From the NCBI GenBank assembly GCA_964035015.1, contig OZ035997.1, positions 18,259,866 through 18,323,865 on the forward strand: a DNA stretch of 64,000 nt, read 5' to 3'. Positions 18,765 to 59,787 of the stretch are shown here, one piece after another; position 1 is the stretch's first letter, and each line of letters starts with the position of its first letter. Under the pieces are notes generated by a model. It saw only the letters and a program-made list of their open reading frames with translations, did not search any database and was not told where the DNA came from. Position numbers and translations under genes: made by a program. This DNA is from Corallium rubrum (Eukaryota; Cnidaria; Anthozoa; Scleralcyonacea; Coralliidae).

Positions 18765-18940
18765 AACTTAGTACGAAGTCTAGAATTACATTAAATTTCG
18801 TGCAATATTTTTAAATGTGCAATACTAATTACTAATTATTTTGTTTATTTATAATTATAATAGTTACTCCCTAATATATGTTAACTTGATTTGTGCGTCA
18901 CAAATGTGATAAAGGATTTATCATCGTGACTGAAGTGTTT

Positions 18941-19510
18941 TTTGGACAACCTCTGTGATAACGAACTCAGTATCTCAGTTTTCTTAGGCAACCTCTGTGA
19001 TAATGAACTCAGTATCTCAGTTTTCTTAGGCAACCTCTGTGATAACGAACTCAGTATCTCAGTTTTCTTAGACAACCTCTGTGATAATGAACTCAGTATC
19101 TCAGTTTTCTTAGACAACCTCTGTGATAACGAACTCAGTATCTCAGTTTTCTTAGACAACCTCTGTGATAACGAACTCAGTATCTCAGTTTTCTTAGTCA
19201 ATCTCTGTGATAACGAACTCAGTATCTCAGTTTTCTTAGGCAACCTCTGTGATAACGAACTCAGTATCTCAGTTTTCTTAGACAACCTCTGTGATAACGA
19301 ACTCAGTATCTCAGTTTTCTTAGTCAATCTCTGTGATAACGAACTCAGTATCGCAGTTTTCTTAGACAACCTCTGTGATAACGAACTCAGTATCTCAGTT
19401 TTCTTAGGCAACCTCTGTGATAACGAACTCAGTATCTCAGTTTTCTTAGGCAACCTCTGTGGTAACGAACTCAGTATCTCAGTTTTCTTAGCCAACCTCT
19501 GTGATCGTGA
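18941..19510. repeat. 42-bp minisatellite, open in frame on both strands
   Basis: About 13.5 copies of a 42-bp unit (TGTGATAACGAACTCAGTAT, then CTCAGTTTTCTTAG and linker). As 42 is divisible by three, a 14-residue unit repeats perfectly on each strand: NLCDNELSISVFLG on plus and PKKTEILSSLSQRL on minus, giving frames of 223 and 204 codons. Most variation is at the GGC/GAC/GTC linker. Nothing indicates that either frame is translated. It lies about 0.8 kb upstream of the alpha2delta/CACHD1-like start codon. Confidence 0.93.
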
Positions 19511-23169: not shown

Positions 23170-26100
23170 CTAACTGGAGGTAGACTTGAGCATTTCTTGC
23201 TTCTTTTCTCTTAGTTTAGCAATCTTTCTCAGCGGCAATGAGCCAGGTCTTGTAAAACATTCCTAAATAATGAAATAGAATAGCTGCTAAACCTTTTTTC
23301 TGAATGAATTTATAACTGGTTAACCTAACTGTTTGCGTAGCCGCACCAACATGCAGTCTTATTAAATGTTTCAAAAAAATATCGTCATTTCACGAGAAAA
23401 AGGACCTATATATTTCCACCACCGTTCGCCACAGCCATTTTTGGACAAGATCCACAGTCTAGTTATATGTAAGTCAGCGGTATATAAAAACATGCACAAT
23501 CATGCCAACGTACGAAACAGAACAAGAAAACATTTGAAGAGAGAAAAATGTTTGTCAGGTAAGGTCTGAAAAAGCCTGTGGCTTACTCCAAACTATCCTT
23601 AACCTTACCATAGACATAATGTTGGCCGCTATCTTAAAACGTGATTCTTGTCGGTATACCATAAAGGCATGAAGCTGGGACACAGAACTTCCTATATACC
23701 TTCTCGAGCATAGCACTGAGAGTGAGAGCAGCCTTAAGTCAAGTACTGCAGCCATGTCCTGAAACTAATTTCTAGCTGGGCAAGGTCCAAAAACTGAATT
23801 TGCCGACCAAGGTCCTGGCGTTAAGTCTTTTTACACGAAGTCAGTAAGCTAATTTTTCAAAAGAAGGAAAGGGTGCAAAGTCTTGGAGATGTAAGGAATA
23901 AATTAACCTTCGTCTATAATGCCAGCCGCACACGAGAGCAACTAGCTGAGCTAACCGCCTCGCGAGGCCATTTGCTCAGCAAGATTCTCTGGTGTGCGAG
24001 TCGTTTTTCCTGAGAATTTGACTCGCGAGGTCAAATTCTCAGGAAAAACAACGCGCACACGAGAGAATCTTGCTGAGCAAATGGTCTCGCGAGGCGGTTA
24101 GCTCAGCTAGTTGCTCTCGTGTGCGGCTGGCTTAATGAATGCATGCATACATGGTCCAATTAGCGCATATGACTGCCTGAGCGATAAGTCACTTCTCGAC
24201 GTCACCTGACTAAAACTGCTAGAATATCCTTTCTTAGACTAATTTTCTCCCATGCATGAGCCCAAGAGACTACTGGTAGATGTTGCTTTAATAAAAAAAA
24301 CAAAAACTTGGCGAATGCTGCATGGTAGCTACAGAAAATGAATATTGAAACTAATGTAGAAAATCAGCCTACATTAAAAACTCAATAACCAAGATGTTAC
24401 TCTCTAGCTTCTGGCTCAATTTTCTAACATACAAAGAAATAAACTTGATATACTGACTTACTTGCATGAAATGATGACAGTCAATGGTTTCTGAGTTCTT
24501 TGTTATATTCTAACAATAAAAAAGATCAAACAATAACTGCCGCGCAGCAGAAACACTAGTAGCAGTAGCAGTAGCAGTAGCAGTAGTAGTAGTGGTGGTA
24601 GTGGTGGTAGTGGTGGTAGTGGTGGTAGTGGTGGTAGTGGTGGTAGTGGTGGTAGTGGTGGTAGTGGTGGTAGTGGTGGCAGTGGTGGCAGTGGTAGTAG
24701 TGGTAGTAGTGGTAGTAGTGGTAGTAGTGGTAGTAGTGGTAGTAGTGGTAGTAGTGGTAGTAGTGGTAGTAGTAGTGGTAGTAGTGGTAGTAGTGGTAGT
24801 AGTAGTGGTAGTAGTGGTAGTAGTAGTGGTAGTAGTGGTAGTAGTGGTAGTAGTGGTAGTAGTAGTGGTAGTAGTGGTAGTAGTGGTAGTAGTGGTAGTA
24901 GTGGTAGTAGTGGTAGTAGTAGTAGTGGTAGTAGTAGTGGTAGTAGTGGTAGTAGTGGTAGTAGTGGTAGTAGTGGTAGTAGTGGTAGTAGTGGTAGTAG
25001 TGGTAGTAGTGGTAGTAGTAGTGGTAGTAGTGGTAGTAGTAGTGGTAGTAGTGGTAGTAGTAGTGGTAGTAGTGGTAGTAGTAGTGGTAGTAGTGGTAGT
25101 AGTAGTGGTAGTAGTGGTAGTAATACACACGTAAAAATCTCACAGCTTGTCAACAGGATGTATTCGCAACAGGCTTGTAGCAAGGCTGTTAACAGGTTGT
25201 AACAGTGCTGTTCATTCAAGAAGCTGCTACAAGCTTGTTAGCATCAACCTGTTAACAATTTGTTAAGTGCAGAGCTGTAACAGGTTGTTGGAACAACTTG
25301 TCATCAGTCTGTTGGAGTCATCAGCCTTGTTACAAGTTGTCAACAACCTGTTACAGACATGTTAACAGACTGGGACAGCCAGTGCGAACACATCACGGTG
25401 ACAGCCTGTTGAACAGCCTTGTAACAACTTGCTTGCAGGTCTGTAACAGCTTGCGCGTTTTTACGTGTGTAGTAGTAGTAGCAGTAGTAGTAGTAGTAGT
25501 AGCAGTAGTAGTAGTAGGTATGTGATATGTAACTATACAGAAGTTCAGGAGACCCTGATCTTTGCTTTACTGTTTAAAGTGTCTGTGACATGAAAATTCC
25601 GATAGAACAAATTTGAAGCTCGTAATCTAAATACTACGCTATCCGCCTCGATTAGCACTTGCTATTTGCGAATTTAGTGTATATTTAATGTATAAATTAT
25701 GGTCAATATAATAAATAAATGAATGAATGAATAACCAATATCCAAAAAAAAATATATAAATAATGTGGCATGTACTTTTCAAGATATTAAGTGCTAAAGT
25801 TGTCTTCCTAATGTTAAAAAATATGGATAGACTGGAATTGAATATCTGGGGGAAATGACGTATGCCGTTGAATTATTAACTGCATACGTCATCTAGCACT
25901 CTAACTGATTCAAAAATGAATAAGCCATAGCAAACTTTGAGTGTTTACAGCTCAAAGATTATGCAGCAGATTAGACTGAAATTTTCAGTGAATGCTCTTG
26001 TCATGCAGACCTGCTCAAAACCGCTAAAAAGGTTTTTCGCTTCATAGACACTTTAAAGGATAACAGCGCTCCAAAAAAGAGTTACGTTCAAAATAATATT

Positions 26101-32100: not shown

Positions 32101-35100
32101 TAATGTAATGTAATGTAATGTAATGTAATGTAATGTAATGTAATGTAATGTAATGTAATGTAACGTAACGTAATGTAATTCTCACGATCGTACTTTGAAC
32201 GAGTTTTAACGTGGTTAAATAAATTATTCTATTCTATGCTATTCTATCCTATCCTATCCTATCCTATCCTATCCTATCCTATCCTATTCTAGTGCGGTAT
32301 TTTAAAAACACCAACATCCCAACAGTAATTTTGACCTCAAGGATTTACAATTAAGTCAATCCACAGTGTGCATACTGTAGTTAAGTCAATGGGTCCCAAC
32401 CTGGAATCCACATATTGTGTGCTCACAATATGTGATAATGTGTGTATAATGCCCAAAAGACCTGGGGGTCCGTGAGGTTATAATGGGAAGTCCGCAAAGA
32501 CCTGCCCTATTGATATTTTTCCCATGGGTGTTGACCAAAGATTTTAAGTTATAATTTAATGTTTTTACTTTAAAATATAGACGACGCAAAAATGCCCTCA
32601 AAATGTAATAAATGTCCTTTCAAGACCAGCAGAAATGTGTCGCCATCGAATCTGGAGGTCCGTGAATATTTTGAACATGTCTCGAAGGGGTTCTCGGACA
32701 AAAAAGGTTGGGAACTACTGAAGTGTACTATAGACATCTTAGAGCAGTCTACCTGGCAATATCCAACACTAGGGTTGTATTGAGCATAAGCACTGAGTAC
32801 ATTAAACAGAGACTCCTTCGTGGAGGTCAAATCCTTTGCAAAATGAATATTCTCTGGAAATGTTCTATGTAAATCTAAAATGTAGAACAAATTGTTAATA
32901 AATAGCTTAAATAAGACTGCTTATAACAAAACAATCCACATACTGCAGAGAAGTGAGGTGAGGTAGTGACATAAAGTGAAGTGACGTGACGTAAAATGAC
33001 GTAAGTGGGGTGAAGTGGGAGTGAAGTGAAGTGAAGTGAAGTGAGGTAAAGTGAAGTGAGGTGAGGTAGTGAGGTAAAGTGACGTAAGTGGGGTGAAGTG
33101 GGGTGAAGTGGGGTGAAGTGGGGTGAAGTGGGGTGAAGTGGGGTGAAGTGGGGTGAAGTGGGGTGAAGTGGGGTGAAGTGGGGTGAAGTGGGGTGAAGTG
33201 GGGTGAAGTGGGGTGAAGTGGGGTGAAGTGGGGTGAAGTGGGGTGAAGTGGGGTGAAGTGGGGTGAAGTGGGGTGAAGTGGGGTGAAGTGGGGTGAAGTG
33301 GGGTGAAGTGGGGTGAAGTGGGGTGAAGTGGGGTGAAGTGGGGTGAAGTGGGGTGAAGTGGGGTGAAGTGGGGTGAAGTGGGGTGAAGTGGGGTGAAGTG
33401 GGGTGAAGTGGGGTGAAGTGGGGTGAAGTGGGGTGAAGTGGGGTGAAGTGGGGTGAAGTGGGGTGAAGTGGGGTGAAGTGGGGTGAAGTGGGGTGAAGTG
33501 GGGTGAAGTGGGTGGGTGGGGTGAAGTGGGGTGAAGTGGGGTGAAGTGGGGTGAAGTGGGGTGAAGTGAAGTGATGTGAGGTAAAGTGATGTGAGGTGAA
33601 GTAAAGTGAGGTGAGGTAAAGTGAAATGAAGTTAAGTGAAACCACATCTGATAGTAAAGATGAGATGAGGTGTAACTTGCAAGTTGAAGTGTAGGTAGAA
33701 GTGGAAATGAAAAAAACCAAACCACCTAAATGTCATAAAATAATTTCATAAGTTAAGAGATAATTCCAGTAAGTTCATTTACCAGTTTTTATACTTTCTA
33801 GGACTTGAGAATCTTTTGGGCTGTCAAGCATCCTCTTATAAACGCCCTCGCCATGTTTTAATCTCTTTCTAGCTCCACTTACATCAAACCACACCTAAGA
33901 TACAGTGAGGCATTTTTAATCTACAGTACAATGACAAGTACATACTTCATTCATTGTGACCATTTATGCCCCGTTCACACTTTACCGGATAGGTTTTCGT
34001 GCCGGTACGACTCGGCACGAAACGACAAATAATTATGCCGTATGATAGATACAACCAATCACCACGCTCTATTCTATTAATTTACTTCCGAAACGATTTC
34101 GAACTCCGTTCACACGGGAGCTGAAACGGCACAAAAAGCTACCGATGAAAGATACAGCTCTTTCGAGATCGGAGCGGCGGAAATTGTGCCGGAACAGGCG
34201 TTTTGGGTGTGTGTGTACAGAAGGCCTATCCAGTATGGTTTTCGTGCCAGCACAAAAGCTATCCGGTATAGAGTGAAGGGGGCCTTATTCAGGCTTGTTT
34301 TTCATTATCAAAAGTAACATACACATATGCAGTAATACCTACAATTATATTTTAATGTCATCAGCATAGACGTCACTACGGAGTCACATGAGATGCGCGC
34401 ACGTGCATTACCAAGGTAGTCTTTAAAGTGAGTGTGAGCAGGAGTCTGGAACGAAGGAGTACAGTACCAGGGAGGTGGGTCTGGTCATGACTCCTTCATT
34501 CCTGGCTGATATCACGCTAGAATTTCAATCAAACATCAACTTGAAGTCTCGTTTAATTACTCGGGCTACTATTGGGAGAGGTTTCGGCTACGAGTCTGCG
34601 ACACAAAATTGCATTTTTGCACAATTTACTTCCGCTACTATATTCATGCTTCCGGTGAGTTGTTAGCCGTGTGGCTGAGTGAGGCCATGAGGCACGTTGT
34701 AAGTTCTTTTCTCCTTTTGCTTTTGGAGTTGGACAAAAAGTTGAACAGCTTTGCCTTTTAATTACGGTGTTCTTGCACGTAGTTGGTAGATCAAATTCAT
34801 TAATAATTCATGAAGAAAATTCAAAATAAATTGTTTAATCAACATCTGTAAATCGCATACAGATTCGTCGTGATTTACATAAACTTTTTCCTCAATTTAC
34901 TTAGCTAAAATCACTGCAGCTCGCCTTGTAAATCACATACAGATCAGCTGCTCATGCTTTATCTATTACTTACAGAATGCTTACAATTGTCTCCAAACTG
35001 TGTGTATATATTGTCTTAACTCTGAAGACCGTGCATTGACTATCTGAAGAATGCACATGCATTGAGTATCTGAAGAATGCACATGCATTGAGTATCTGAA

Positions 35101-38100: not shown

Positions 38101-41100
38101 GAAAAGTATATTGCAAATGACTGTAATTGACTCAACCATGTATGATTCAAAAATAGTTTACTGTATGCAGTGTATGAATATCAGCTATGCAGTCATTATG
38201 GTTTAATTTAATAGCCCGCATAATTTTAGGATTATGCAAAAGAGTTAAGGTCTACAGTATGTAGATTATGAAAATCTACACCAACCTGAGCTCTCTGAGA
38301 AGAAGGTATCCCTTTCCTGCAATAACGTTTCACTAGAAATTTAAAAACAAACAAACACATATACTACAGAACGTCTGGTACAGTACTGTGCATGGGGTGG
38401 GAATTAGCCATATTCTAGCTGAGAGTACTAAAAGTAGTTTACCACTAAAAGTACAGTATATAGTATTGTTAGCCAGTGTACTGTACTGTACTGTACTGTA
38501 CTGTACTGTACTGTACTGTACTGTACTGTACTGTACTGTACTGTACTGTACTGTACTGTACTGTACTGTACTGTACTGTACTGTACTGTACTGTACTGTA
38601 CCATACTGCGCTGTATTGCACTGTGCTGTATTGCACTGTATGGTGCTGCACTATACTGTACTATACTGTCCTGTGCTGTCCTGTATTGTACTGTACTGTA
38701 CTGTACTGTACTGTACTGTACAGTACTGTACTGTACTGTACTGTACTGTACTGTACTGTACTGTACTGTACTGTACTGTACTGTACTGTACTGTACTGTA
38801 CTGTGCCACATTGTACTGTGCGGTGCTGTACTGCACTGTACTGTATTGTGCTGTATTGCACTGTACTGTGCTGCACTGCACTGTACTGTACTGAACTGTG
38901 CTGCACTACTGCACTGTACTATACTGTACTGCACTGCACTATGCTGCACTTCACTGTACCGTACTGTGCTCTACCATACTGTGCTGTACTGTGCTGTACA
39001 GTACTGCACTGTATTGTACTATACTGTGCTGCACTATGCTGCACTGCACTATACTGTACTGAACTGCGCTGCACTGTACTATACTGTACTGCACTGCACT
39101 GCACTTCACTGTACTGTGCTACACTGCACTGCACTGTACTGTACTGTACTGTACTGTACTGTACTGTACTGTACTGTACTGTACTGTACTGTACTGTACT
39201 GTACTGTACTGTACTGTACTGTACTGTACTGTACTGTACCAAACAATTTTGTATGTGGAAAAAACTCTACAAAATATGCTGCTAAAACATATTAGACTTA
39301 ATTGTATGGTGAATTATACCATCAGTTCTTTAAAAGAAAATAAATTCCCCACTTTCACTTCTGACAAGTTCAAATATTAACAGTACAGTACAATACAATA
39401 CAGTACAATACAATACAGTACAGTACAGTACAGTACAGTACAGTACAGTACAGTACAGTACAGTACAGCACAGTACAGCACAGTACAGTACAGTACAGTA
39501 CAGTACAGTACAGTACAGTACAGTACAGTACAGTACAATACAGTACAGTACAATACAATACTGTGATACAGTACAGTACAGTACAGTACACTAATCAAAT
39601 TGCTGATAGTAATCTCAAACCTCTAATAGATTTCCTAACTCTGTGATGAGGGTCAATAACTTTATCCCACTTTGCTGCTCTTCTTGCCAAGACACCTAAA
39701 TATTCTGACATAAAATTCTCATATGCCTCATAGTCAAAATCAGGAGCTCTTTCAAATCCATATTCATCTACTTCACTAAAAAGATTAAAACATCAAAAAC
39801 TTGATTAAAAATAAAGTGTGGTAATTTATGGTACCTACCGGTATATACAAATTAATATGAACTATAAAATGAAGTTTGTATTTTACAAAACTGACAATAA
39901 CAGCACATAATGTTAATCTTAACCTGCTATTTTTCACTCTTATACCTTTAGTTAGTATGAATAACAGCAAAAAGTACATGTTGGGTATTAAATCAATAAG
40001 AGATCCAAAAAAGTTTGTTTCTTATTGGCCCTGATTACCTATCCAACACTTTGAACCATGAAAAAATCTAATTGTCACATACCAGTATGTCTATGACACA
40101 GTAAAACAATCTTACGGACACTCTCTCTGCTTTTTATAAGTAAAATTCTAGTTGGTATATACCTGTTTATATTTGTCATATTATTTTTATATCTATCAGA
40201 ATTCATTTAAATTCTGTAGCAGAAATACCATCAAATATTACATATAACTACTGTATATTACCCAGTAAAGCACTCATAATTAACAGCAGGAATCAAGTCT
40301 ATATATTTAATATAATTAAATAATAAATTCAATATTCTAATTAAATAATGAATTCATTATAATTAAATAATGAATTCAATATTATAATTAAATAATGAAT
40401 TCATTATAATTAAATAATGAATTCACTATAATTTTTTTGTTGTTGTTATAGACTGAGTTAGATGTTTCCACCACTAATAAAAACAATAATCTCACATGTG
40501 TGATTATTTATGGTAATCTCACATGTGTCGATTATTGTGAAATGTATTAGAGTTTACTGCCCTATTTTTCATATAATAAATTAATAAATGAAATACATGA
40601 ATGCTTGGAAATATGAAATTTATTTCTCATGTTGACCAAGATATCCTAGTCAACACTCAAAATAAGTTTCATATTTCCACACATGCATGTATTATTCTTA
40701 CATTTATTTTCTGTTGGGAAGGTTTGCTCTAATAGCTGAGGAACAGTTTACATGAACAGATGATCCACCAAAATGGGAGTAGTCTTATAGGTAGAGCAGC
40801 TGCAGACAAGCCTAAACTCCCAACTACTGGCACTAACTTGTAGCAATGTTGCCAAGAATTACATGTACCTGCAGTACTACACAGGGTGGGTGAGTGTTAT
40901 ATAGTGATATATGGCAGTCAGTATGTGAGTGAGTCCTGAGGCTGGGCACCCGCACTCATTAAACCCAGCAAAGGACTGGCTACTGGATTCGATGCCCCCA
41001 ATTAGAACCCCAAGGGACCCAAGGAACAACAATACATACACATCACATGATGTTAAATAATTAATTTAGTTAAATATATTTTCTTATAATCTCATTAATT

Positions 41101-41909
41101 CATGTGTCCATTTGATTCATTCATTTATACATTCCTTCATTCATTCGTTCATTCACTCACCCACCCACCCACCCACACACCCATTCACTCACTCACTCAC
41201 TCTCACTAACTCACTTCATTTGTTTGTTTGTTTGTTTGTTTGTTTGTTTGTTTGTTCGTTCGTTCGTTCGTTCGTTCGTTCGTTCGTTCGTTCGTTCGTT
41301 CGTTCGTTCGTTCGTTCGTTCGTTCGTTCATTCATTCGTTCGTTCATTCGTTCGTTCGTTCGTTCGTTCGTTCGTTCGTTCGTTCGTTCGTTCGTTCGTT
41401 CGTTCGTTTGTTCATTCGTTCGTTCGTTCGTTCGTTCGTTCGTTCATTCATTCATTCCATCAATCAGTTATCATACTGGCAAGTGTTTGTGTTGTGACTG
41501 TTGTCTGCCAGTGTTTTTAGTTATTTCATATTTATTATGTAACTGAGACTTCCTGTGAAGTCCTTTGTCTGAGAGTAACTGGATAATTCTACCACAAGGA
41601 GAGTGTATAAACGATTAGTATTCGTTTTGGGTTTGTTAGATAGTCCTGAAGGTAGCACTTTCCGTTCGTGACTTCGTGGAAGAAATAAATTAAGCCATCT
41701 GTCAACATTTTGGTTGCTCTTCACTTCATCTTCAATACGGAAGCAGCCACTAGCCAGCTCGTCTTCGGTTTAATACATGTAGATCTCCTTCATTCTATCG
41801 TTTTAACATACCTAGCTCATTTAACTTAGGTCATCAAACACAAAACAGTAACCTTTACATTCACAACCACGTTACAGTATTAAACATCTCACCTTGTTAT
41901 AGTTGACAT
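23170..41909 (-). CDS. GRTP1: TBC-domain Rab GTPase-activating protein, growth hormone-regulated TBC protein 1-like
   Basis: Eleven exons join in phase into 1002 bp, 333 aa plus stop: 41893-41909, 39621-39775, 38286-38332, 33783-33894, 32753-32874, 31908-32004, 30100-30163, 28507-28615, 26392-26529, 24462-24509, 23170-23262. Vertebrate GRTP1 is of similar length. The N-terminus has EVDEYGFERAPDFDYEAY; the TBC domain starts near residue 75. Both catalytic fingers are present: Arg114 in TDLHRTFPENIHF and Gln151 in VGYCQGFNYI. Later TBC landmarks are WFICLYTDVLPTETVLRIWD and the tail DCHHFMQ...PGSLPLRKIAKLRE. It should accelerate GTP hydrolysis on a Rab; the substrate cannot be read. The donor after 26392 (GTATTT) and the one at 38286 (GTTGGT) are weak. 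The start ATG lies in a 17-bp first coding exon. Confidence 0.93.
23921..24131. repeat. 211-bp near-perfect palindrome
   Basis: The left half GCCAGCCGCACACGAGAGCA...AGAATCTTGCTGAGC-type arms are mirrored up to TGCTCTCGTGTGCGGCTGGC. A central sub-palindrome is built of TGAGAATTTGACTCGCGAGG. TAAT-like bases flank both sides. It is a MITE-like fold-back in the last intron of GRTP1. Confidence 0.9.
24553..25122. repeat. 570-bp (GTA/GTG) trinucleotide microsatellite
   Basis: Runs of GGTAGT, GGTAGTAGT and GGTGGTAGT units in blocks of changing period: GTGGTG-rich at the left end, GGTAGTAGT in the middle. It lies about 45 bp from the 48-bp exon 24462-24509 of GRTP1, in the intron preceding that exon. 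All long frames across it (poly-Val, poly-Thr, poly-Leu-Pro) are repeat artefacts. Confidence 0.97.
25124..25470. repeat. MITE with ACACACGTAAAAA ends, inserted in the TAG microsatellite
   Basis: The ends ACACACGTAAAAATC and GCGTTTTTACGTGTGT are inverted repeats. The body is made of many AACAGCTTG / TTGTAACAACTTG / CTGTTAACA words in both orientations. TAG repeats continue on the far side (25470-25518), so the element sits within the trinucleotide array. Confidence 0.8.
26955..27246. repeat. MITE-like element with TTGCAACTTGCAAC words
   Basis: TGCTGTTATACGATGCGATT and TTTCTTGCAACTTGCAAC on the left mirror GTTGCAAGAAAAATTGCATGGTGTAACAGTAGC on the right. A partial internal end (GTTACACGGTGCGATTTTTT) suggests two nested copies. 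Confidence 0.75.
27292..27617. repeat. Two adjacent hairpins
   Basis: At 27292-27478, ATAGGCCTTATTCAAAAATGGC mirrors GCGGCCATTTTTGAATAAAGTCTAT. At 27518-27617, GTAAGTTCCTGTTTTGAATT mirrors AATTCAAAACAGGAACTTGT. Confidence 0.75.
27640..28345. repeat. Diverged direct repeats
   Basis: A phrase of the type TGGGAACGAGAAAATAAGCGATGTTTTTGACGCCAAA appears near 27690, 27905 (drifted) and 28140. The words GACTTGTTAGG(A/T)A and TCTAGTTC/TTTATATT recur alongside. It is a decayed duplicated element of unknown type. Confidence 0.4.
28950..29245 (-). pseudogene. Unrecognised coding-like fragment
   Basis: A minus-strand frame without stop carries FPLCLGKICESPRAAVCN, MIAEENFENLTDRKFTRL, REVASDFPVHVDEGKY and GNLEEDKGFLCLLITPQ. 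The composition looks like real protein rather than translated repeat, but there is no start codon context and no family I recognise. It lies inside a GRTP1 intron and does not fit that gene. It may be a retroposed or transposon-carried piece. Confidence 0.3.
30578..31038. repeat. 450-bp inverted-repeat element built from GGCGTATTTTTCATGCGCCG
   Basis: The left arm is GTGACAAATGGCGTATTTTT plus CATGCGCCGTATAAAAT; the right arm is ATTTTATACGGCGCATGAAA plus AATACGCCGTTTGTCAC. The inside has more CGCCGTA words. The phrase AAGTGTTAGTGACA is at the left end and again just outside the right end (31023-31038), like a long target duplication. Confidence 0.75.
32073..32289. repeat. (TAATG)n and (TCCTA)n pentanucleotide arrays
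   Basis: About 21 TGTAA units to 32180, then (after 40 bp of unique sequence) about a dozen TATCC/TATTC units at 32222-32289. Both lie in the GRTP1 intron between the exons ending at 32004 and starting at 32753. Confidence 0.95.
33000..33640. repeat. 10-bp satellite (GTGGGGTGAA)n
   Basis: About 45 near-identical copies in 33087-33560, flanked by decayed GTGAAGTGAG versions. It is strongly G-rich on plus, so C-rich in the GRTP1 pre-mRNA. The frames of 281 and 272 codons on minus (HFTPLHPTSP unit) are artefacts. Confidence 0.96.
33967..34286. repeat. MITE-like inverted-repeat element
   Basis: GCCCCGTTCACACTTTACCG plus GATAGGTTTTCGTGCCG on the left mirrors GCACAAAAGCTATCCGGTAT plus AGAGTGAAGGGGGC on the right. 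A GGAGCTGAAACGGCAC-type internal arm also pairs. Confidence 0.75.
35038..35165. repeat. 26-bp tandem repeat
   Basis: Five copies of TATCTGAAGAATGCACATGC plus ATTGAG, the last two diverged. Confidence 0.9.
35294..35789 (-). mobile_element. TA-flanked DNA transposon remnant (Tc1/mariner-pogo type) with acidic ORF tail
   Basis: The inverted ends CCGTAAATGTTCGATTTAGC and GCTAAATCGAACATTTACGG are both flanked by TA, the target duplication expected of Tc1/mariner-class elements. Inside on minus, a frame reads FFTGQGREVLRSQLSIL, then FEVSDSDVEDASDPHLWIDD and an acidic end with a stop near 35483. Acidic C-termini are common in pogo/Tigger transposases, so this may be the tail of one. The catalytic core is missing. 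Confidence 0.65.
35870..37840. repeat. Nested inverted repeats
   Basis: Three layers are visible. A fold-back with ATTCTAAATTAACGTTTA appears at 35870-35985 and again, diverged, at 37715-37840. Arms with CGTCAAATGGTATAAGAAGA and GTATCCGTTTTGGTTTTGGA at 36460-36560 are mirrored at 36810-36925 across GATGGCGGACAGCA(C/G). A second pair at 36940-37125 and 37225-37410 (GTTACTTTGTCATTT, GATATTCAGGTTTGTT) is related to 20640-20840. No reading frame of note. Confidence 0.75.
38473..39238. repeat. (TACTG)n pentanucleotide array, degenerate in the middle
   Basis: About 765 bp of CTGTA units. The outer parts are perfect; the middle (38600-39120) has substitutions giving GCACTG and TGTGCTG variants. It fills most of GRTP1 intron 2, between exons 38286-38332 and 39621-39775. 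Apparent frames up to 269 codons (YCTVL) are artefacts. Confidence 0.97.
39379..39590. repeat. (CAGTA)n array in opposite orientation to its neighbour
   Basis: About 42 CAGTA units, the reverse complement of the preceding array, separated from it by about 140 bp. It ends about 30 bp from the donor of the exon at 39621-39775. Together the arrays form a large potential hairpin. Confidence 0.97.
40308..40430. repeat. AT-rich tandem repeat, about 27 bp
   Basis: Five copies of TATAATTAAATAATGAATTC with spacer, in GRTP1 intron 1. It is followed by two CTCACATGTG-containing copies and a hairpin at about 40585-40690. Confidence 0.85.
40740..41110. other. Intron stretch with nothing recognised
   Basis: Unique-looking sequence in the first intron of GRTP1. 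No coding or structured feature is supported. Confidence 0.4.
41117..41457. repeat. (TTCG)n/(TTTG)n/(TTCA)n tetranucleotide array
   Basis: TTCA/CCCA-type units to 41220, nine TTTG units, then about 50 TTCG units with scattered TTCA. It is the inverse complement of the (CGAA)n array at 57421-57640. The Phe-Val-Arg-Ser frames are artefacts. Confidence 0.97.
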
Positions 41910-42221
41910 AATTTCCACTCTCGGCTCAAAAAATAGTAACTTATATAATTAACACTGTATTGTACAGAATATTATCGTCTCCTTTTGCCTGATATCGCGT
42001 TCCTTTAAATTACTTCTTACTGCATAAACCTTCATAAAATAACAACAAGTTACTGTAGTATCCCTTGAAAGGTTATGGAAACATTGAGTTCTGATAGCGA
42101 TATCAAAGATAATTTTAGAACTGAAGAAGTTTTATAGCTGAAAAGCACTTCGCTTCAGTGGCCTGCAGCACCGGCCAGCAGTCGCGACAGTGGTCGCAAT
42201 GCTATAAATAGATTTGTTCGC

Positions 42222-43385
42222 GCGACGAATTTACTCAGACGACTTTAAATTCGAACTAACTTCGTCGGTAATGCGCGGATCAAATCGAAATGTCAACATC
42301 CCCCCCCCGGGCACACATGGGGAATTTGGATTTTTTTATTTTATATTGGTCAAATTCCCCACCTATGTTCTTTTCTCCCGTTCAAATATACCATGTTTTG
42401 GAAAAATTGGAGATCAAATGCCCCACCCTCAACGATTCTATACAAAAAATTGAAACAAATATTCGTTTGATGCGAACTCTGTGAACATAAACTTAAACAT
42501 CAAAATCATTGTACATATCAGTTTCCAGAGTTGAAAATGTCTTAGTCCTTGCTTTTCTGTTTGTTTTCCCTTCTTGTTTCCCGTGCTTTCTGCGTACCAA
42601 GCTCTTTTGTGATAAGCTTTTTCTTTAAATGTTCCACCCAGATGGTCACTTCTACTTCTGATAGTAGACATCTCTTTGCAAGAGCAGGAATGTCTATTAA
42701 TGGCTTCTCAAATTCACTTTTTATGATCTGACTTGGTGGCAATGCTCTTACTAACTCCCCTTTGTTGTGCATTTGTGCACATTTGTGCATTTGTCCATAT
42801 TTAAATAAATAAACGTGTGGCAATGCTTTTAAAAGTTTCGAGTGAAATCAGAAATCGCCGCTATCGTGGCAAAACATTTTGGTTATTGTCACTGAGTATA
42901 GACATGGACAGTGAACATTTCAGTGAACAGTAAGAAAGTTTCTTACTTTCAAAGATTTGTTTTAACCTGACCAGACCGTTTTCTTCCAGCCACTCACAAA
43001 CAAAAGAAATATTTTGACCAGAAAAATCTGACAAATTCGCCGCCGCCATTTTGAACAGAATCTGTTCAAATTCCCCACCCCCCTAGCAAATTCCCCACCC
43101 TCCACTGGGTTAGAGCGTCAAATTCCCGCCACCCTAAAATGCCGAACGATCAAATTCCCCATGTATGCCCGGGGGGGGGGGGGATGTTGACATTTCGATT
43201 TGATCCGCGCATAATGCGACGTAAATGTTTCGTCGAGTTAAACGTCGGGTTGGTTTTACTTGGACGCGTTGACCGAATTGTCGCAGACAGAAGAGAAACA
43301 TTTAGTTCGACTCGACGATAATCGTCGTGTAACTCGAACACGCAATTATTGTCGCATTATCCGTCTGACTCAGACGAATTTAATT
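42222..43385 (-). mobile_element. Inverted-repeat element carrying a small gene
   Basis: Left ATGCGCGGATCAAATCGAAA plus TGTCAACATCCCCCC and GGGGAATTT (about 42270-42330) is mirrored on the right at 43157-43215. Weaker outer arms (ACGAATTTACTCAGACGA) match 43360-43385 and beyond. Short CAAATTCCCCAC words recur at both ends (42351, 43068, 43085, 43110, 43149), as transposase-binding subterminal repeats do. The two-exon gene inside is listed separately. The superfamily is not identified. Confidence 0.65.
42542..43049 (-). CDS. Two-exon small protein inside the inverted-repeat element (106 aa, unknown)
   Basis: Exon 1 is 43049-42947, 34 codons plus one base, ending GAAA|GTAAGAAA. Exon 2 is 42759-42542, after AAAG|GGGAG. 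The phase-1 junction joins cleanly and makes an Arg codon. The 106-residue product starts MAAANLSDFSGQNISFVCEW and then LEENGLVRLKQIFE. It continues with IKSEFEKPLIDIPALAKRCL and LSEVEVTIWVEHLKKK, and ends in a highly basic tail (KARETRRENKQKSKD). Helices followed by a basic tail suggest a homeodomain-like DNA-binding module of the sort carried by some cnidarian transposons; this is inference. An AATAAA lies near 42338 on the coding strand. It could be the element's own protein or a captured host gene. Confidence 0.5.
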
Positions 43386-44303: not shown

Positions 44304-47300
44304 ATGGACGGCGAGAGTGATGGTGAGGAGTTTTTTGACGCCGCTGAATTTCCTTCGAGTTCTAGTCCTGCCAAAGACGACTCCGACACAACAACAAAGC
44401 CAACATTCTGTCAAGAAGATCTATCACCTACTTGGTAAATAAAGACCGTTTTAACGAACATGAAAATCAAATTATTAATGCCCTAATTATGTCAAAATCT
44501 TTGTCTTTTGGGTTTACTAGGACTTCTAAAGATACTTCGACCGTATCCATCGTGTTAGATAAAGAACATTCTGTAAAGGTCAGTTTTAAAAATGAAAATA
44601 AGGTCATTTTATTTACAAATATCAAAACATTCCCACTAACAGTTCACAGAATATATTAAATTAATTTAACAGTTTTTATATTTTTACAGCATTTAGTGGT
44701 ATTACTGGTATATATTTCGTAGAAAGTTAAGTCGTATTCATGTTCAAGTCACATGATTTTACACACACTTTAATTTTTCCTCTGCACAAGGTTCTGTGTA
44801 TGTTATGTTATAACTGACAAATATACGTAAGTTATTTAGAGTCTAGTAATTTGGTACATGCTAAGATCAACATATAATGGCTGTCAATGGAATACAGAGG
44901 GGGAGGGGTAAATTTGAAGAACTGTGACAGAAGTAAAAACACCCCCATTATGACATAAAGAAGACAAACAAAACATTAGTAACATTTGTTTTCAATTGAT
45001 ATTGTATAAGAATAATTAATCTATTAACAAACAGACTCTGTTTGTGTGCTCAGGTTTAGTACAGGTATAAACCAACTACTGTACATGTAGTGGACTTTTA
45101 TAAGTTCAAGCTCTCTTGACTCGATGATAATAATTACAAATCCTGCATTCTGATTGGTTGAGCTACTCACTGTTTATTGGTATTTGACACTGACCTATAT
45201 ATATATAACTGGACTGGGTGCTGGCCAAAAATGTGTCCCCATTTTCACTTTCAAAATGGCAGCATTTATGGGTCCTTCTGCTAATGGTAGTGACCACTGA
45301 CATGTACTTATTGCAGGAAAAAATACAAAGTTAAATACAAAGTGATTTTCTTACTTTAACTTGTTCCTGGCGTTAGCCAGAGAGATAGCTACTTTATAAA
45401 TTGTTCTTGTCTGAGGGCTTCCCCAGAGGTGAATTAAATTGTCTGGCATTAGCCAGAACAAAATACTAAAGAGTGAAGACCAATAAATTCAGACAGGAAA
45501 GAGTTAATGGTTGGTCATTGTTAATTTCTTGTGGAATGACTCAACTGGCCTACTGAATTATTTGTCTGAACAAATTAAAATAGAAATATCAGTAGAACAT
45601 GATCTTGAGTTTGTGTATTAAACAAAATATTTCAGTGGTTTTTCCATGTACAGTAGAACTTGAGTTTTACGACACCCCTTTTAACGACCACCTGCTGTTT
45701 ACGACCACTTTTTCTGGCACGGACTATTTGTAATAGAAATGTACCTCCGATGTGCGACCACCTGCCTAACGCGACCAGCGACCACTTTTTAGTGTCCCAA
45801 ACAAGATATTTACCTGCTGTGAGTGACCATCTCAACATAAAACTGCTGAAATACGTTAAAGAAACACCCGTTTTTTCATAGTAAACAAATGCGAATGCGA
45901 CCACATGCGAAAACAACATGGCAATTGTGCAACACTTCCGGTTTCATACCGCATTTTAGACTTGTTTTGCTTCTCTTTTGAGCATTATTTGATGAAAATC
46001 TGTGTGAATTTTTGTTGTCAGAGTTAAATACTTTTTAGTTGATGTTTGAGAGTTAATACAATGACTGAACAATTCGAAACCATGAGTAATACTTGTTAAC
46101 TTTAGACAAGTTGATCTTGACGATCATTGACGTTATTTTACAACGGTTTTACAATGGCTTTTTAACTTGGAAAGGAAAGTGACAAAACTCAGTGTTCACA
46201 TCTAAAAAATACTACTGGAAGATCGTAAATAAAGGCAAGAGCTTTTAACAAGACCAAACCAGCGTAAAAATCGAATCAAACGTAATAAAAACACAGCGCA
46301 AAAACTGAAGTGAACGATAGTACGACACGATTTTGATATGGAGAACATCGCTCTATAAAGGCCATGATATTTCGGTGTATTAAACGCACAAATGTCAAAT
46401 TTTTTTTCTCTTAATAACCATATTAATATTAATAAATCAAGACTGCACTTCTTTGAAATGTTCTTAAACCTTGAAACAATGTTTATATAAAGAAGAGCTG
46501 CGTCGCTGCTAAAATGGCTGCTATGACGTCACATCACTACTTGCCATGTACGACCTCCTGTCATTTACGACCACTTTTACCTGGCAACAGGGGTGGTCGT
46601 AAAACTCAAGTTCTACTGTATATTATTTAAATGTTTGTTGCTGAGCAGCCTTGGGATGTTTTTATGATATTTTATTGTAATTCTGAAGTACAATAATTCC
46701 TAGACAATTACTGTAGGAGCTTTGTAGCATTCTGAATTAAAGATGTTCAGGCTAGTGTATGGCACGAACACTTGGCAAACAAGACTGTCAGACTACACAA
46801 TAACACATGGTCATGAAAATCTACAAACATTTCGTTTTCTGAGTCACCAAGAGCTATAAAGAATCACTGAAGATCACGAGAAAATCGTAAAGAAGTGAGG
46901 CATGGCTGAGTTCTCCTTAGAGTGTCTTTATCAACCTTTTCCAAGTGTTGTTATTTATAATGAAAGCTTTCTGATTGATGGATTTCGACCATCTTCCACT
47001 GTCCCAACCTGATGTAGTTTGTCGTCCAGCTTTCTTGTCTTAAAAAATCTTAAAAACTTGTCTTAAAACTTGTCGTTTACCAGATTTTAAAACACCTAAG
47101 AAGTAAGAACTAATGAGTTTCTCATCTGTTAAATATAATTCAACTGAATTATTGCCGAGGAAAATGCAGTTTTAAAAACAATGATGTATGATCATCAAGT
47201 CCTGTTCTTAGGTATCGGTCAGTGACCTTCACCATTGGCAAAAGGACCCATAAATGCCACCATTTTGAAAACGGTTTTGGGGACACTTTGGCCAACTCAA

Positions 47301-50300
47301 AGGTAATAGGAGCATGCAGTCCAGCTATATATAGGTCAGTGGTTAGTAGACCACTAGTAATGAAAAGAGTTAAATGCAAAACAATTATAGCAGAAAACTC
47401 ACCTTTTGGTGAGGATTCCATGGGGTTTTTTTAAAATAATATTTTGGGTAGTCAATTTATCCTAACCCCCCCCCCCCCATTTTTTTATTTTAACAGATGT
47501 CGATTAAATGTACCCTAAACTTAACCACCTTTTTCGAGTATTAATTCATTACAAAAAAATTATGAATAATTAATTTTGAAGCTAATATTGTTAGATGAGT
47601 GACACTGTAGTCAACTTGGCTGTGCCCAATTGACTATCTGCTCATGGACAACTTTGGCTTGTTTAAATTGTTGTTAATTAGATTAATTAGATACACAGTT
47701 GATGTCACTGAAATGGTAAGAACAAAAAAAGTGGCCAATAAGTGGATCACTGTCTGATGTTTTTACCTTGGGGGTGCTCCGTGGAATTCAGAGTACAGAC
47801 CATGAGGTACACCGCTGAACCTTTGAAACTCTGCTCCAGCAGGGGCCGCGGAAGCACCTTGAAAGTGGGGGGGCACTGACCAAAAAGGGCACTTGAGTTT
47901 TGCACCTTACTACTGTATCTTAGTGTAATATAGATATATATTCTTTTATGAATCATGATCAAGTCACAAAGTCAGCAAAGTATTGGTGGACATTCTTCGG
48001 ATGCTATGCGTATTCTCTATTGCTCTGCATGCGTACTAAGTCTTAACAAACTGAAGATGATTAGATGAACAATTTTATTAAGTAATGCGATTTTATTAAA
48101 ATTTGCCAAAAAATCTAACCCTACGTTCGTTTTTCAGAACAAAGTCTTTAGCAATCAAACTTAAGTCCAGTTCATCAGTTCTGGCCTTGTTTACATGCAT
48201 AACAATAAGGTTGTTGTAGCGTGCTGCCGTCATCGTGCTCCTTAGATACGTTTTGACAAGACGCTGGCTTGAAAAAGATCGTTCTCCAGAGGCTGCGCTC
48301 ATTGGAGCAAGAAGGTAAATCTGCAAAAGTCGGACAACGTTAGACATTGCCATGACGATCTGCGATGAGTCAGTTTCTTCTGTTGAGAATATTGATGTAA
48401 TGGTGTCAATTGATGTCACCGTCTTAACTTCTGGAAGTCGCTGCGAGATAATTCCTTCAAGAAGCTTTAACTCTGCCTTTAGCTGATCAAAATCGAGGTC
48501 ATCTTCGTAAAGGCGTTTCACTGCATCATTTAACTCAAACGTACGCCCATTTGCCGCATTAATGAGCACGGTTTCGATGTACATCAATACAGAATATATT
48601 TCTTGATCGAAACGTTCCTGTAGTGCAGCCATGCACGCGTCAATTGCCTCAACACATTGGGCACGGTGGAATTCTTTCGCGGATTGGAAATGATGTTGCT
48701 CACCATCTCCGTGCTGAAATCGCCGCGGAACTTGCTTCGGTCTTGACAGTTTAGGATCGTCTACAAAGTTGATGGCCTTGCTCGAAGTGACTACTTGGTC
48801 GTAAAACAAATGGAAGTCGTCTCGTTGACGTTGCAAGTTTGTCTTCAAGGAATTGACGCAAGTAACAGTTGTTTGTGCCGTTATTGAAGGCTTCTGTAAC
48901 GTAGATGCAACTTGTTCACACACGCTGAAGATATTCTGTGCAAAACTTAAACCAAAGTACGTGGAAAACTTCTTCAATTGGCTAGCCATACCTGATGCGG
49001 TGTCACGTACGGTAGACTTGGAAGATTCTTTGGCTATGCTAAGTAATGTGGAGTACAGGGCCTCGTAATTGTGCAAGACAGCCGAGATGGCTTTGGTTCT
49101 TACCGTCCGCCGAGTTGGACACAGCAAATGCGGATTCTCAACTTGCGTGCCGTTGTCGTTAATCTCTTTGGCGATATGCTGGTATTGCGCCATTCGTGTT
49201 GGTGAAGATCGAATAAACACGGCCAAGTCTTGCACGACCTTTAACGTATCGCTGATAATTTCGCTTTCCTTCACACAATCATGCAAAGCCAAATCAAGAC
49301 TGTGGTTACCGCAGTGAATGTACAGGGCGCGGGGATTCTCTGAAGATATTCGGGCTGCAACTCCACTTCTGCTTCCAGCCATATTTGCTGCGCCATCATA
49401 TGTTTGCCACCGACAGTCGTCTATCGTCAAATTGCATCGCAACAAAATGTCCTTCAGCGAAGTGGTGATTGTTTCAGCATCGGTTTTCTCTAGCTCGTAC
49501 ATACCGAGGAAATCTTCGTGGACGGATAAGTCGGTTGTAGATACCCAGCGTAAAACACATGTTAATTGTTCCTTGTTGCTTATGTCTCTAGACTCATCTG
49601 CAATAAGACTAAATAATTGTGATTCCTTGCGTAGGTCTGCAACTATAGACCTCAGGACTGCGTTGCCCATCATGTTAATCAACTCGTTTATAATGTCATG
49701 ACTGAGATATCTTCCGTTGTCAATCCACTCCAATAATCCAGGGACATCCTCTGCTCTTAATTTTAGCAGCTGGTGTAAGTTACTCTCAATGTCAGTTTTT
49801 CCTTGCAAGCTCTGGGCCTGGCGTGCCAAATACCTAATGCTACTAAGTTGTTTTAACAACATTCGTCTTCGAGTTTCCTGGGGTTTTTTAAATTCACCGA
49901 CCAATTTCGCTCCGATATCGCTTCTCGAATCATCAAATAATAAAACTTTCTCAGTGGCCTCCGCGTGAAATTTAGACTGAGAGTGTTTTTTAAGTTTTTC
50001 TTGGCACTTCTTCCAGTCGCTGAATTCCCCTAAGAGAAAGGCCTTTTCACCGTTATGACTGAATGTAATAAGGTCTTGACGCATCGCTCTTTTACAGAAG
50101 TAACAGGCAATGGTACCTTTCGTCACGCAATATGTGACCCAAGCGTACTTCAAAAATATAGAGGATGGACAAGTTCGTACATTCGACGATCCTCCTTTAG
50201 TGGTTTGCTTTGTAGATGTGCGCTTTATTTCTTCTTGGGTAGGACGGTAAGGCTTTCTGTCTGTACAGCACAAACGCTGACACTCCAGTCCTAGCGAACA

Positions 50301-53300
50301 ATCTGTTGATTCAATTGGCATAGGTCCTACAAATGGGACGGTAGTCGTAGAACTTGGCAAAGACGCTAGGTTGTCAGAAGCTCTGGGAGTAGATGGCTCG
50401 GTCGGCGGCGCGACTGGTATCTCTGAAGAGGCCCCAGGGCCAGGATCACTGAAATTTGATTCGGAATCAGAATGATGAGATAAACAGGTTGGTGGAGTTT
50501 CCGTAGTTGACGGCAGTGTCGAGTTAGACCCAGAGTCGATGTCGGGTTCAACAACATCTTTAGTTGGAGCGCTACTAAAGAAACTTGTCAGTTTTCGCAT
50601 CCTTTTAGCTGTTTCTACAAGCTCTTTTTCTTTTTCTCGTTTTCGCCTAGCAGCTCTAGGCATGATGATTTTTAGTAGACCTCCTGATTGAATATTGTAA
50701 ATTTGTAATTATTATTATTATTGTGATTTGTCAACAGTCCTGTAAGAACAATGGTCTGAGAAACAATACGACGGGAGCAATGCGTAGCGGTAGAATTTAT
50801 AGTCTCATGTGGATCATAAATTGCGATTTCTGATTGGTTAACTAGGGGGTGGACCTCTGCGAAGACAATCCCACTCGACAAATCACAATTTTTGATCCTT
50901 CTGGGCAATCAAGATCAAAAACCAAGCTGTAGCCGATTTTGCATGGTGTCATGGATTGACTTTGTTTTACATATTTTTACACGCATAATACGCAACTATT
51001 TGCACTAATTTTTTTTTCCTATTAGCGTATTATGCGTATACCACTCCAAGACTCCAAGTGGTCCCAAACGATATATTTACTTCTGCCAGCAGTGCACTTA
51101 TTAGCTTAAGGGGGCATTTACAGCCATTTGCGTCCAAGACCGAACCGCAAACTTTTTCACACGTTTGTTTACGTATGTATAACGTGCCGTTTGAAAGTTT
51201 GAAACGCGACGTTTGCTGTTTAAAACGGAAACCATTCTTATTGTTTTAAATCATCACAACTGAGTCAGTTTAACTGACGTTGTAAGAAACGATTACTAAC
51301 AAGTTTCGCCGCTCTTGTATCATTTGAAAACCTATACAAGCTTCTACTTCACGAATTTCGACTAAGTCTAAACTGGTATGTTTAAATGTTTAATGTTTTA
51401 AATTAAAATTGATAAAACGTGCATCAAAACATGACATACAGTAACATGACAGTTACAGCACCAGAACCGTCGGGTTTTCCATTCTAATTAGTATATTTTC
51501 AATTTCGCATCTGAATGACTTCCGTTTCAAACGGCAAATGTCACGTTACAAACGTAAACAAACGCGTGAAAATGTTTGCGGTTTGTGCTTGAACGCAAAC
51601 GGTTGTATCTAAGAAAAACGTCGTTAGTTCAATAGTTCCCGAAACAAGGGCACATCTATTCCATGAAAAAAGGGCACTTTCATTCCAGAAAAAGGGCACA
51701 TTTTCCCCAGGTACAAAAAGTGGGGGGGCACTTGCCCCCAATGCCCCCCCGGTTCCGCGGCCCCTGTCAGCTCCAGACTAAGGATTGAAATTTTTGTGAC
51801 CTTGTTTCAGCCAACTGAAGTTATAGCAAAAAATAGTACCCAAAACAGACCTTGTTCCAGACCAAATGAACAATTTATATATGCTGTTCAGACTAAAAAT
51901 GCTAGAAACCATACCCTGTATGGTTTAGCCTGCGAAGCAGACGGTTGTTTTGGGGGTGGGTTTATTTTTGGGGGGAGGGTTTATATTTGGGGTCGTGAAA
52001 TACCGGAGGCGGAAAACCCGCAAAGGCTGCGGGTTTTCCGCCTCCGGTATTCCACGACCCCATATATAAACCCTCCCCCAAAAAATAAACCCACCCCCAA
52101 AACAACCGTCTGCTTCGCAGGCTATGTATGGTTGTAATAAAAGTAGTGTGCTGCGTATAGGCAGTGTTGAAACAACAATTGAAATATGGTATAGTAGGTT
52201 AATACTGCCGAAACAGAGAACGTAAGTGGTCTAACGTTCCGAGCGAAGGCCCTTCTGACGGAGGGCCTTCGCTCGAAAAGCCCCTTCTGACGAAGGGCCT
52301 TAGCTCGAAACGTTAGACCACTTACGTTCTCTGTTTCGGCAGTATTAAGCTACTATACCATATTTCATATGTATGGTTGTGCCGGGCACGTCCGTGTATA
52401 GCCAATATATGATAGTATGCATCCCCTTTGGATTCTTACTTCATAACCAATGTTGTCTCTGCCATGTGATGTGTGTATCTATGGTGGAAGCCACTCGACC
52501 CACTTACCAACTTGTCACTTACTCCACCGGAGTTGTCCCACAATACTCAATCATTCGAAATCATCATGTATGAAGATCATCATGTATGAAGACTGTTGTC
52601 TAGATATTGAAGAAACTACTACTTACTAGTCTGTTTCAAAATATCGACCTTCTGCTCCCAACTTGACCTGTAGCTCAGTTGATAGAGCATCGGACTAGTA
52701 AACTGAAGGTCGTGGGTTTGAATCCCAGCCAAGCCAAGTAGAGTTTTCTCTACTTGTCCAGTATGGTTCCGACATTGGTTCGTCACTCAGAGTAACACCT
52801 TAATATAATTCTCCACCCGAGTTCACTGTCCCACAATAATCATTTGAAATCGGCAGAAAGTGGCTGGTGCGCATCTTGGGTGAAGTTTGGCGCCTGCACA
52901 ATCAGGTTTGACGTGGTCAGCAATGACTGACCCTCTCGAGCTCTGTCTAGTTAACACCCACTGCCATGTTACCCTTCACCACTGGCATGTCGCCTTTGTG
53001 TAGACCTTCGACACCGTTTCTAATGCTGAAGTTAGCAGAGAAGGCGAATTCACGTCTTAAGTTAAGCGTCGTCCTAGACCAAACCACCTGTGTTGACACT
53101 CGGTGGAAGACCAGCGTAAGGGCGGAGGTGCGCGGCGTGACCGAAATCTGTTTCCCAGTATAATCCCACAAGCGTTCTTTCATGCGAGATTTCGAACTTT
53201 CAACGCGCGGTTCGGAAGTTCGTTGCCAAGTAGCAAATTACGTTTCAGAATTCAGAAGTTCATTACGAAGTTCGATTAGTTCGAATATTCGATTCGAAGT

Positions 53301-58900: not shown

Positions 58901-59787
58901 TCTGAAACATTTTCTGAGCAATTGCGGTTGTCCAAATTCCACCGAACGTACGTCTCTTATTAATAGAAATCAATGCTATTTCTGTTCAACAGAACCTGGG
59001 TTTAACTGGTCATGAAGATTTCACTTCACAAAATGCACCGGAAAAACAAATGACTGAACAAATTAAAGATAGTGAAGTAGAAAATGAACTACCAAAAGCA
59101 ATTGTTGATGATAACCAAGATAAAGATGGTGCTGCTGGATATTCTGTAGACTCTGACTTAGACATTAGTACACAAGAAATGAGTGAAATATTAGATCGGA
59201 ATAATTATACTGAAGTTATATCACCACAACATATATCTGTTCATCTACAGAGGAACAAATCTCAGTCTATTTCTTCCATTGGGAGTTTCTGTAGTGTTTC
59301 GAGTAATATTTCATTTCAAGATAAAATAAAGCGTTCTGGTTCTCAGGTTTCATTGAGTAGTTTGAATGCCACAACAGAAAAGACTGTTGCAGCTGCACCT
59401 GGAGATGAACTAACTGATCAGGTATTTACCAGTGAATGAAACATTTGCATAAAACAGTATTGCATAAACTGGCTCCATATAGAGATTAATGGTGAAATGC
59501 AACTTACTCCGAATATTGGCTAAAATTACAGTTGCGAAATACGTCAACTTAGCACTTGGCAAAATTTGAAATAGCAGTATCTTTGTGTCAAGGAGATATA
59601 TCTGAATATGTTCTTAATAGCACTAAAGTTACTATAAACTTCAAGTAAACGACAATTTTTTTTAATGTAAACATGTTTCGGCAAACTTATGCCATCTTCA
59701 GTACAAAATATGAAAGAATAATTATTTTTACAGGCGGTATATATATATCTATCTATCTATCTATATATATATCTATCTATCTATCTA

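Follow-up and report, generated by a model that had tools for sequence, protein, structure and literature searches.

Inverted-repeat element with a candidate gene

A 64,000-nucleotide stretch of the Corallium rubrum genome (GenBank assembly GCA_964035015.1, contig OZ035997.1, positions 18,259,866 to 18,323,865 of the forward strand; referred to here as the window) was found to contain an inverted-repeat element of about 940 bp (42272-43211), with a putative two-exon gene lying between its ends. The element is tentatively read as a non-autonomous terminal inverted repeat (TIR) DNA transposon with one small gene still complete inside it, a reading to which a probability of roughly 0.4 is assigned. 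The inverted-repeat element itself is real, with limits at about 42271/42272 and 43211/43212. Its arms (42271-42308 and 43175-43212) are 100% complementary over 38 nt and share a second complementary stretch of 29 nt at 97%, which bears out the mirrored ends described in an initial annotation of this DNA. A gapped alignment of the arms, with the gap in a C/G run, extends over 62 columns at 92%, giving a left TIR of 58 bp (42271-42328, plus strand; its outer 38 bp match the right arm exactly) and a right TIR of 62 bp (43151-43212, minus strand). Folding of the whole DNA strand also showed the ends to pair. Arms of this length and identity (38 nt at 100%, 62 columns at 92%) fit a non-autonomous TIR DNA transposon. 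Miniature inverted-repeat transposable elements (MITEs) are described as usually shorter than 500 bp and without protein-coding sequence (PMC2872659), and the length of about 940 bp, together with a coding signal in two exons, places the element outside that description.

The ends are accompanied by repeated subterminal words, and the CAAATTCCCC words noted in the initial annotation proved to be concentrated in the element. Allowing up to one mismatch, CAAATTCCCCA has seven matches in the window, six of them inside the element (five exact and one with one mismatch), compared with an expected mean of 1.22 per 64 kb; seven matches were reached in none of 100 shuffles. One word lies in each TIR (42318-42328, minus strand; 43151-43161, plus strand), while the subterminal words are all on the plus strand, at 42351-42361, 42415-42425 (the copy with one mismatch, CAAATGCCCCA), 43067-43077 and 43087-43097. 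Among the matches listed in a literature text search for the word, no paper was recognisably on a cnidarian. Patterns derived from the ends and the words had no match in viral contigs, and the end pattern had none in prokaryote genomes.

A TIR DNA transposon best accounts for the ends, the words and what appears to be the interruption of an older inverted repeat. With a length of about 940 bp and no transposase domain detected, the element would have to move in trans: a transposase made elsewhere in the genome would recognise the ends and the subterminal CAAATTCCCC words, cut the element out and paste it at TAA, in this case into an arm of the older repeat. The insertion site is supported by the DNA itself, and transposition in trans is presumed.

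Probable insertion site

Enumeration of the flanks lists TAA on both sides if the ends begin TGCGCGG (42269-42271 and 43212-43214), and this is likely to be the target-site duplication; AT and other short matches are also listed. When the element and one TAA were removed, the rejoined flanks (42245-42271 and 43215-43247) aligned with an opposite arm at 43383-43323 with a score of 33, compared with 27 for the right flank by itself. Because rejoining lengthens the match with the opposite arm, the most likely history is insertion of the element into an arm of an older inverted repeat, with duplication of TAA. The segment 42245-42271 would then be the left part of the interrupted arm, outside the element, and 43208-43383 the right part of the older repeat, made up of a hairpin of the right flank itself (arms starting at 43208 and ending at 43363) and the opposite arm reaching to 43383. 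The element had initially been given limits of 42222 and 43385, which are too wide, and its outer mirrored ends are best read as this older, interrupted repeat. An extension of the TIRs to 42222 and 43385 was rejected, the 45-nt flanks being no better than controls (8.65% for shuffles, 7.8% for random window pairs); these flanks contain a 20-nt direct repeat at 90%.

Structure and coding signal of the putative gene

The putative gene, the structure of which is supported by the sequence, would read from right to left, starting just inside the right subterminal words, and would be spliced once. Exon 1 (43049-42947, minus strand) runs from the ATG to the donor over 34 codons and one base. It is followed by a GT donor at 42946 and an intron of 187 nt (42946-42760) with a GTAAG donor, an AAAG acceptor and a poor pyrimidine tract. 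Exon 2 begins at 42759 in phase 1 and ends with a stop codon at 42544-42542, giving a product of 106 amino acids (aa), while an AATAAA poly(A) signal on the same strand (42340-42335) adjoins the left TIR. Both the two-exon, phase-1 gene and the AATAAA had been predicted in the initial annotation and were recovered here. The 3' end of the intron contains an 18-bp tandem repeat (2.1 copies, 42765-42802), a possible rearrangement scar.

Codon scores were trained on 1586 codons, drawn from the open reading frame (ORF) of a hAT transposase in the window and from four further stretches regarded as coding. Pfam supports the hAT ORF and one VWA exon of this training set; the ORFs at 58918 and 56900 are without a Pfam match, and the stretch 10763-11125 lay outside the Pfam search. 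Scores were compared with those of 162 non-coding ORFs of at least 60 codons, with larger tandem repeats, the stretches regarded as coding and the element masked. With the combined training set, 2 of the 162 ORFs outscored the whole gene, 3 outscored exon 1 and 2 outscored exon 2, against 145 for the stretch immediately 5' of the acceptor read in the same frame. With training on host stretches only, a single ORF of the 162 scored above the whole gene. A sliding score showed coding signal in both exons and none between them, the intron itself scoring as non-coding.

A selection-corrected scan was also performed, in which all ATG-GTRAG-AG-stop models of at least 100 aa, with introns of 60-600 and on both strands, were scored in the interior of the element and in non-coding windows of 822 bases. 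With combined training, the best-scoring model in the element consisted of exactly the exons of the initial annotation, and this same model was best in five further runs varying windows, codon training and donor. None of 156 overlapping windows equalled it (140 of them have no such model), nor did any of 36 non-overlapping windows, any of the 156 windows under host-only training, or any of 80 windows when looser GTR donors were allowed (0/80 with host training as well). An 89-aa ORF in another frame (42441-42707) was rejected as the coding frame because of its weaker coding score, being outscored by 25, 34 or 46 of the 162 ORFs depending on the training set. The codon content is significant, and most probably the gene is a real one, or was until recently. 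An inverted-repeat element enclosing a coherent gene of two exons, as initially proposed, withstands the controls on arms, word clustering and codon content.

Predicted product

No transposase family was detected by Pfam in the spliced protein or in the exon pieces. The initial annotation had considered a minimal autonomous element, which finds no support in a product of 106 aa without a detected transposase domain, and had allowed that the ORF might be the truncated tail of a known transposase, for which no transposase family was detected in the protein either. A helper element and a captured host gene, the other forms proposed there, are both possible. Exon 1 contains a SAM-like stretch below threshold: SAM_2 matched the spliced protein with an E value of 0.056 and 14.1 bits, and exon 1 read on into the intron with 16.3 bits, both short of the cut-off of 20.5 for membership of the family. 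Exon 2 alone gave only GyrB_insert (E 0.079), below cut-off. Searches of NCBIfam with the spliced protein and of PHROGs with the exon-2 ORF returned nothing, and solved-structure sequences gave no match under E 0.8. Five stretches in viral contigs and 122 in prokaryote genomes fitted the protein pattern, none being confirmed as a relative, as is expected of an animal sequence.

Structure prediction of exon 2 (AlphaFold without alignment) gave three helices with a mean pLDDT (predicted local distance difference test score) of 74.9. The best 50 of 282 Foldseek matches, as well as the 50 matches listed by VIA-align, were mostly homeodomains and other DNA-binding helix-turn-helix (HTH) domains; fold families missing from the VIA-align list are not evidence of absence. 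Exon 2 is modelled, with moderate confidence, as three helices that are weakly homeodomain-like, and the predicted protein would most likely bind DNA. With its basic C-terminus and HTH-like exon-2 half, the 106-aa product could act as an accessory factor or repressor, possibly binding the element's own subterminal words.

Origin of the gene and alternative readings

Retention of the gene from a larger element, one with two genes or one that was deleted internally, is slightly favoured over capture from the host, because the first exon, stop codon and poly(A) signal are closely fitted into the space between the ends and because the poly(A) signal is on the outer side of the left subterminal words. 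A first exon by one end, with the last exon and poly(A) signal by the other, would be expected from internal deletion of a longer element, and the deletion join might be marked by the 18-base tandem repeat of the intron.

Capture of a small host gene, or of gene pieces, by an ordinary TIR element through gap filling or fork switching, intron included, is a somewhat less likely alternative and would make the element a Pack-TIR. Of 100 animal genomes, 55 contained Pack-TIRs according to Tan and colleagues, who counted 370, mostly single-copy; hAT or Tc/mariner elements accounted for 323, and in one case, Ssk-FB4 of Drosophila, FB4 ends enclose a small gene that is nearly complete and includes introns (PMC8277862). 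Pack-TYPE elements are likewise described from plants (PMC8903248). The element of C. rubrum is similar in having coding-like DNA with an intron between TIRs, a feature that does not in itself imply derivation from a host gene; it differs in that the gene it carries is putative and known from sequence alone. The host-like codon content under host-only training agrees with capture, and the retention of the modelled intron means that any copy was made from DNA. The position of the poly(A) signal, terminal to the subterminal words, argues against capture. As gene-carrying transposons are known in animals, the element seems uncommon but not new in kind.

Several observations weigh against the favoured reading of a transposon with a complete gene. 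The TAA duplication is likely and has just 3 bp, being one of several short flank matches, and of 1632 other left flanks of the window that end in TAA, 25 score as well as the real one, so that the empty-site statistic is a modest 1.5% or thereabouts. The acceptor without a good pyrimidine tract is a weak point of the gene model, and longer models fit in the element, namely one of 146 aa if any GT is accepted; a 128-aa model uses the same donor and stop with an acceptor farther upstream. Dinucleotide shuffling of the interior gave two-exon ORFs of at least 106 aa, on either strand, in 155 of 300 trials (12 of 300 when the GTAAG donor was required), which rules out ORF length as proof of a gene. 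With hAT-only training the gene was outscored by 5 and exon 1 by 20 of the 162 non-coding ORFs, and 2 of the 156 windows reached the element's score.

The poor acceptor and the frequency of such ORFs by chance also favour an unlikely alternative, namely that the element is a non-autonomous TIR element of the ordinary, empty kind and its two-exon ORF a chance product or a dead relic. The same is true of the database results, with no Pfam family above cut-off and no relative in NCBIfam or among solved-structure sequences. Against a chance product stand the selection-corrected codon controls (0/156), the exact recovery of the exon limits and a coding signal confined to the two exons; these controls are equally compatible with the dead relic of a real gene. 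More improbable still is a sub-kb transposon family whose sole gene encodes a small HTH protein binding the family's repeated subterminal words, the element spreading with a regulator of its own and borrowing the transposase. The least credible explanation is that there is no transposon, only two inverted repeats, produced by chance or by gene conversion, that flank a real small host gene in intergenic DNA: a single copy is visible in the window (a 23-base end piece with up to three mismatches found no second copy of the ends), yet the 38-bp perfect ends with their gapped extension, the subterminal words repeated at both ends and an older repeat apparently interrupted with TAA on either side speak strongly against it.

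If the gene of the favoured TIR transposon were intact in several copies, the element would illustrate the ways in which a small non-autonomous transposon can retain or acquire its own regulator, and a probable coral case would be added to the animal transposons with a near-complete gene. If the gene was captured, it would be a further example of gene duplication by such elements.

Comparison with other small elements

PIF/Harbinger elements generally create a 3-bp duplication, possess TIRs of 25-50 bp and encode a second, Myb-like DNA-binding protein (PMC9179366). The element resembles these and Tourist-type MITEs in TIR length (the perfect part lies within the range), in the likely 3-bp TAA duplication and in its small, possibly DNA-binding protein. 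It differs from PIF/Harbinger in having no detected transposase and in that the three-helix model is accompanied by no Myb/SANT match in Pfam; only an autonomous copy would need a DDE transposase, which was not found. In organisation the element would also resemble KP-type P elements, which are small, internally deleted and encode a DNA-binding repressor.

The CMITE family of Acropora also consists of small coral TIR elements, and a likely copy is present in the same window. CMITEs are about 100 bp and flanked by TTAA (PMC2872659), whereas the element is about 940 bp and its duplication is likely TAA, TTAA being absent from the flank enumeration. Inside the element the CMITE core finds no match; in the left flank it matches just 13 nt (E 9.5). 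Elsewhere in the window, at 60126-60099 on the minus strand, the conserved core published for the family (PMC2872659) is matched at 27 of 28 bases (E 1e-8), and near it on the same strand GTGAAAGGG is followed by TTAA at 60059-60056, like the published end and duplication of family VI. The segment 60056-60126 (minus strand) is likely a copy of the Acropora CMITE, recognised by its core and one end, and speaks for a coral host. The family was reported from two Acropora species, with no significant match in Porites lobata (PMC2872659).

Neighbouring genes

The element had initially been placed between the start codons of two Rab-regulator genes, an arrangement that could not be confirmed. To the right, a coding-like first exon at 44304 was outscored by none of the 162 non-coding ORFs; it has no Pfam match and a single PDB match at E 0.98. 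Its start is reminiscent of WDR44, which binds Rab11, a name unsupported by any search. To the left, no gene start codon was identified in the listed region 40500-42300.

Other features of the window

An uninterrupted hAT-type transposase frame of 870 codons lies on the minus strand at 48099-50708 (DUF4371, E 2.9e-13; Dimer_Tnp_hAT, E 9.7e-05). The frame may belong to an element that is active or has been domesticated; no clear pair of terminal repeats around it was seen in 46800-52400. Near it are three further inverted repeats, at 51119-51607 (61-nt arms at 85%, separated by 367 nt), 51926-52124 (97-nt arms at 97%) and 52175-52372 (95-nt arms at 88%), which are other fold-back elements. An exon-like ORF with a VWA domain was identified on the minus strand at 12743-13627 (VWA_2, E 3.4e-06). 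Matches to the tRNA family occur on the plus strand at 1628-1699 (Rfam, 49.1 bits) and 52669-52731 (35 bits). Long tandem arrays are present at 15232-15888, 18937-19505, 24559-25122, 33003-33614 and 38477-39239, with periods of 19, 42, 9, 10 and 5, respectively, some of them remaining open for more than 200 codons in several frames.
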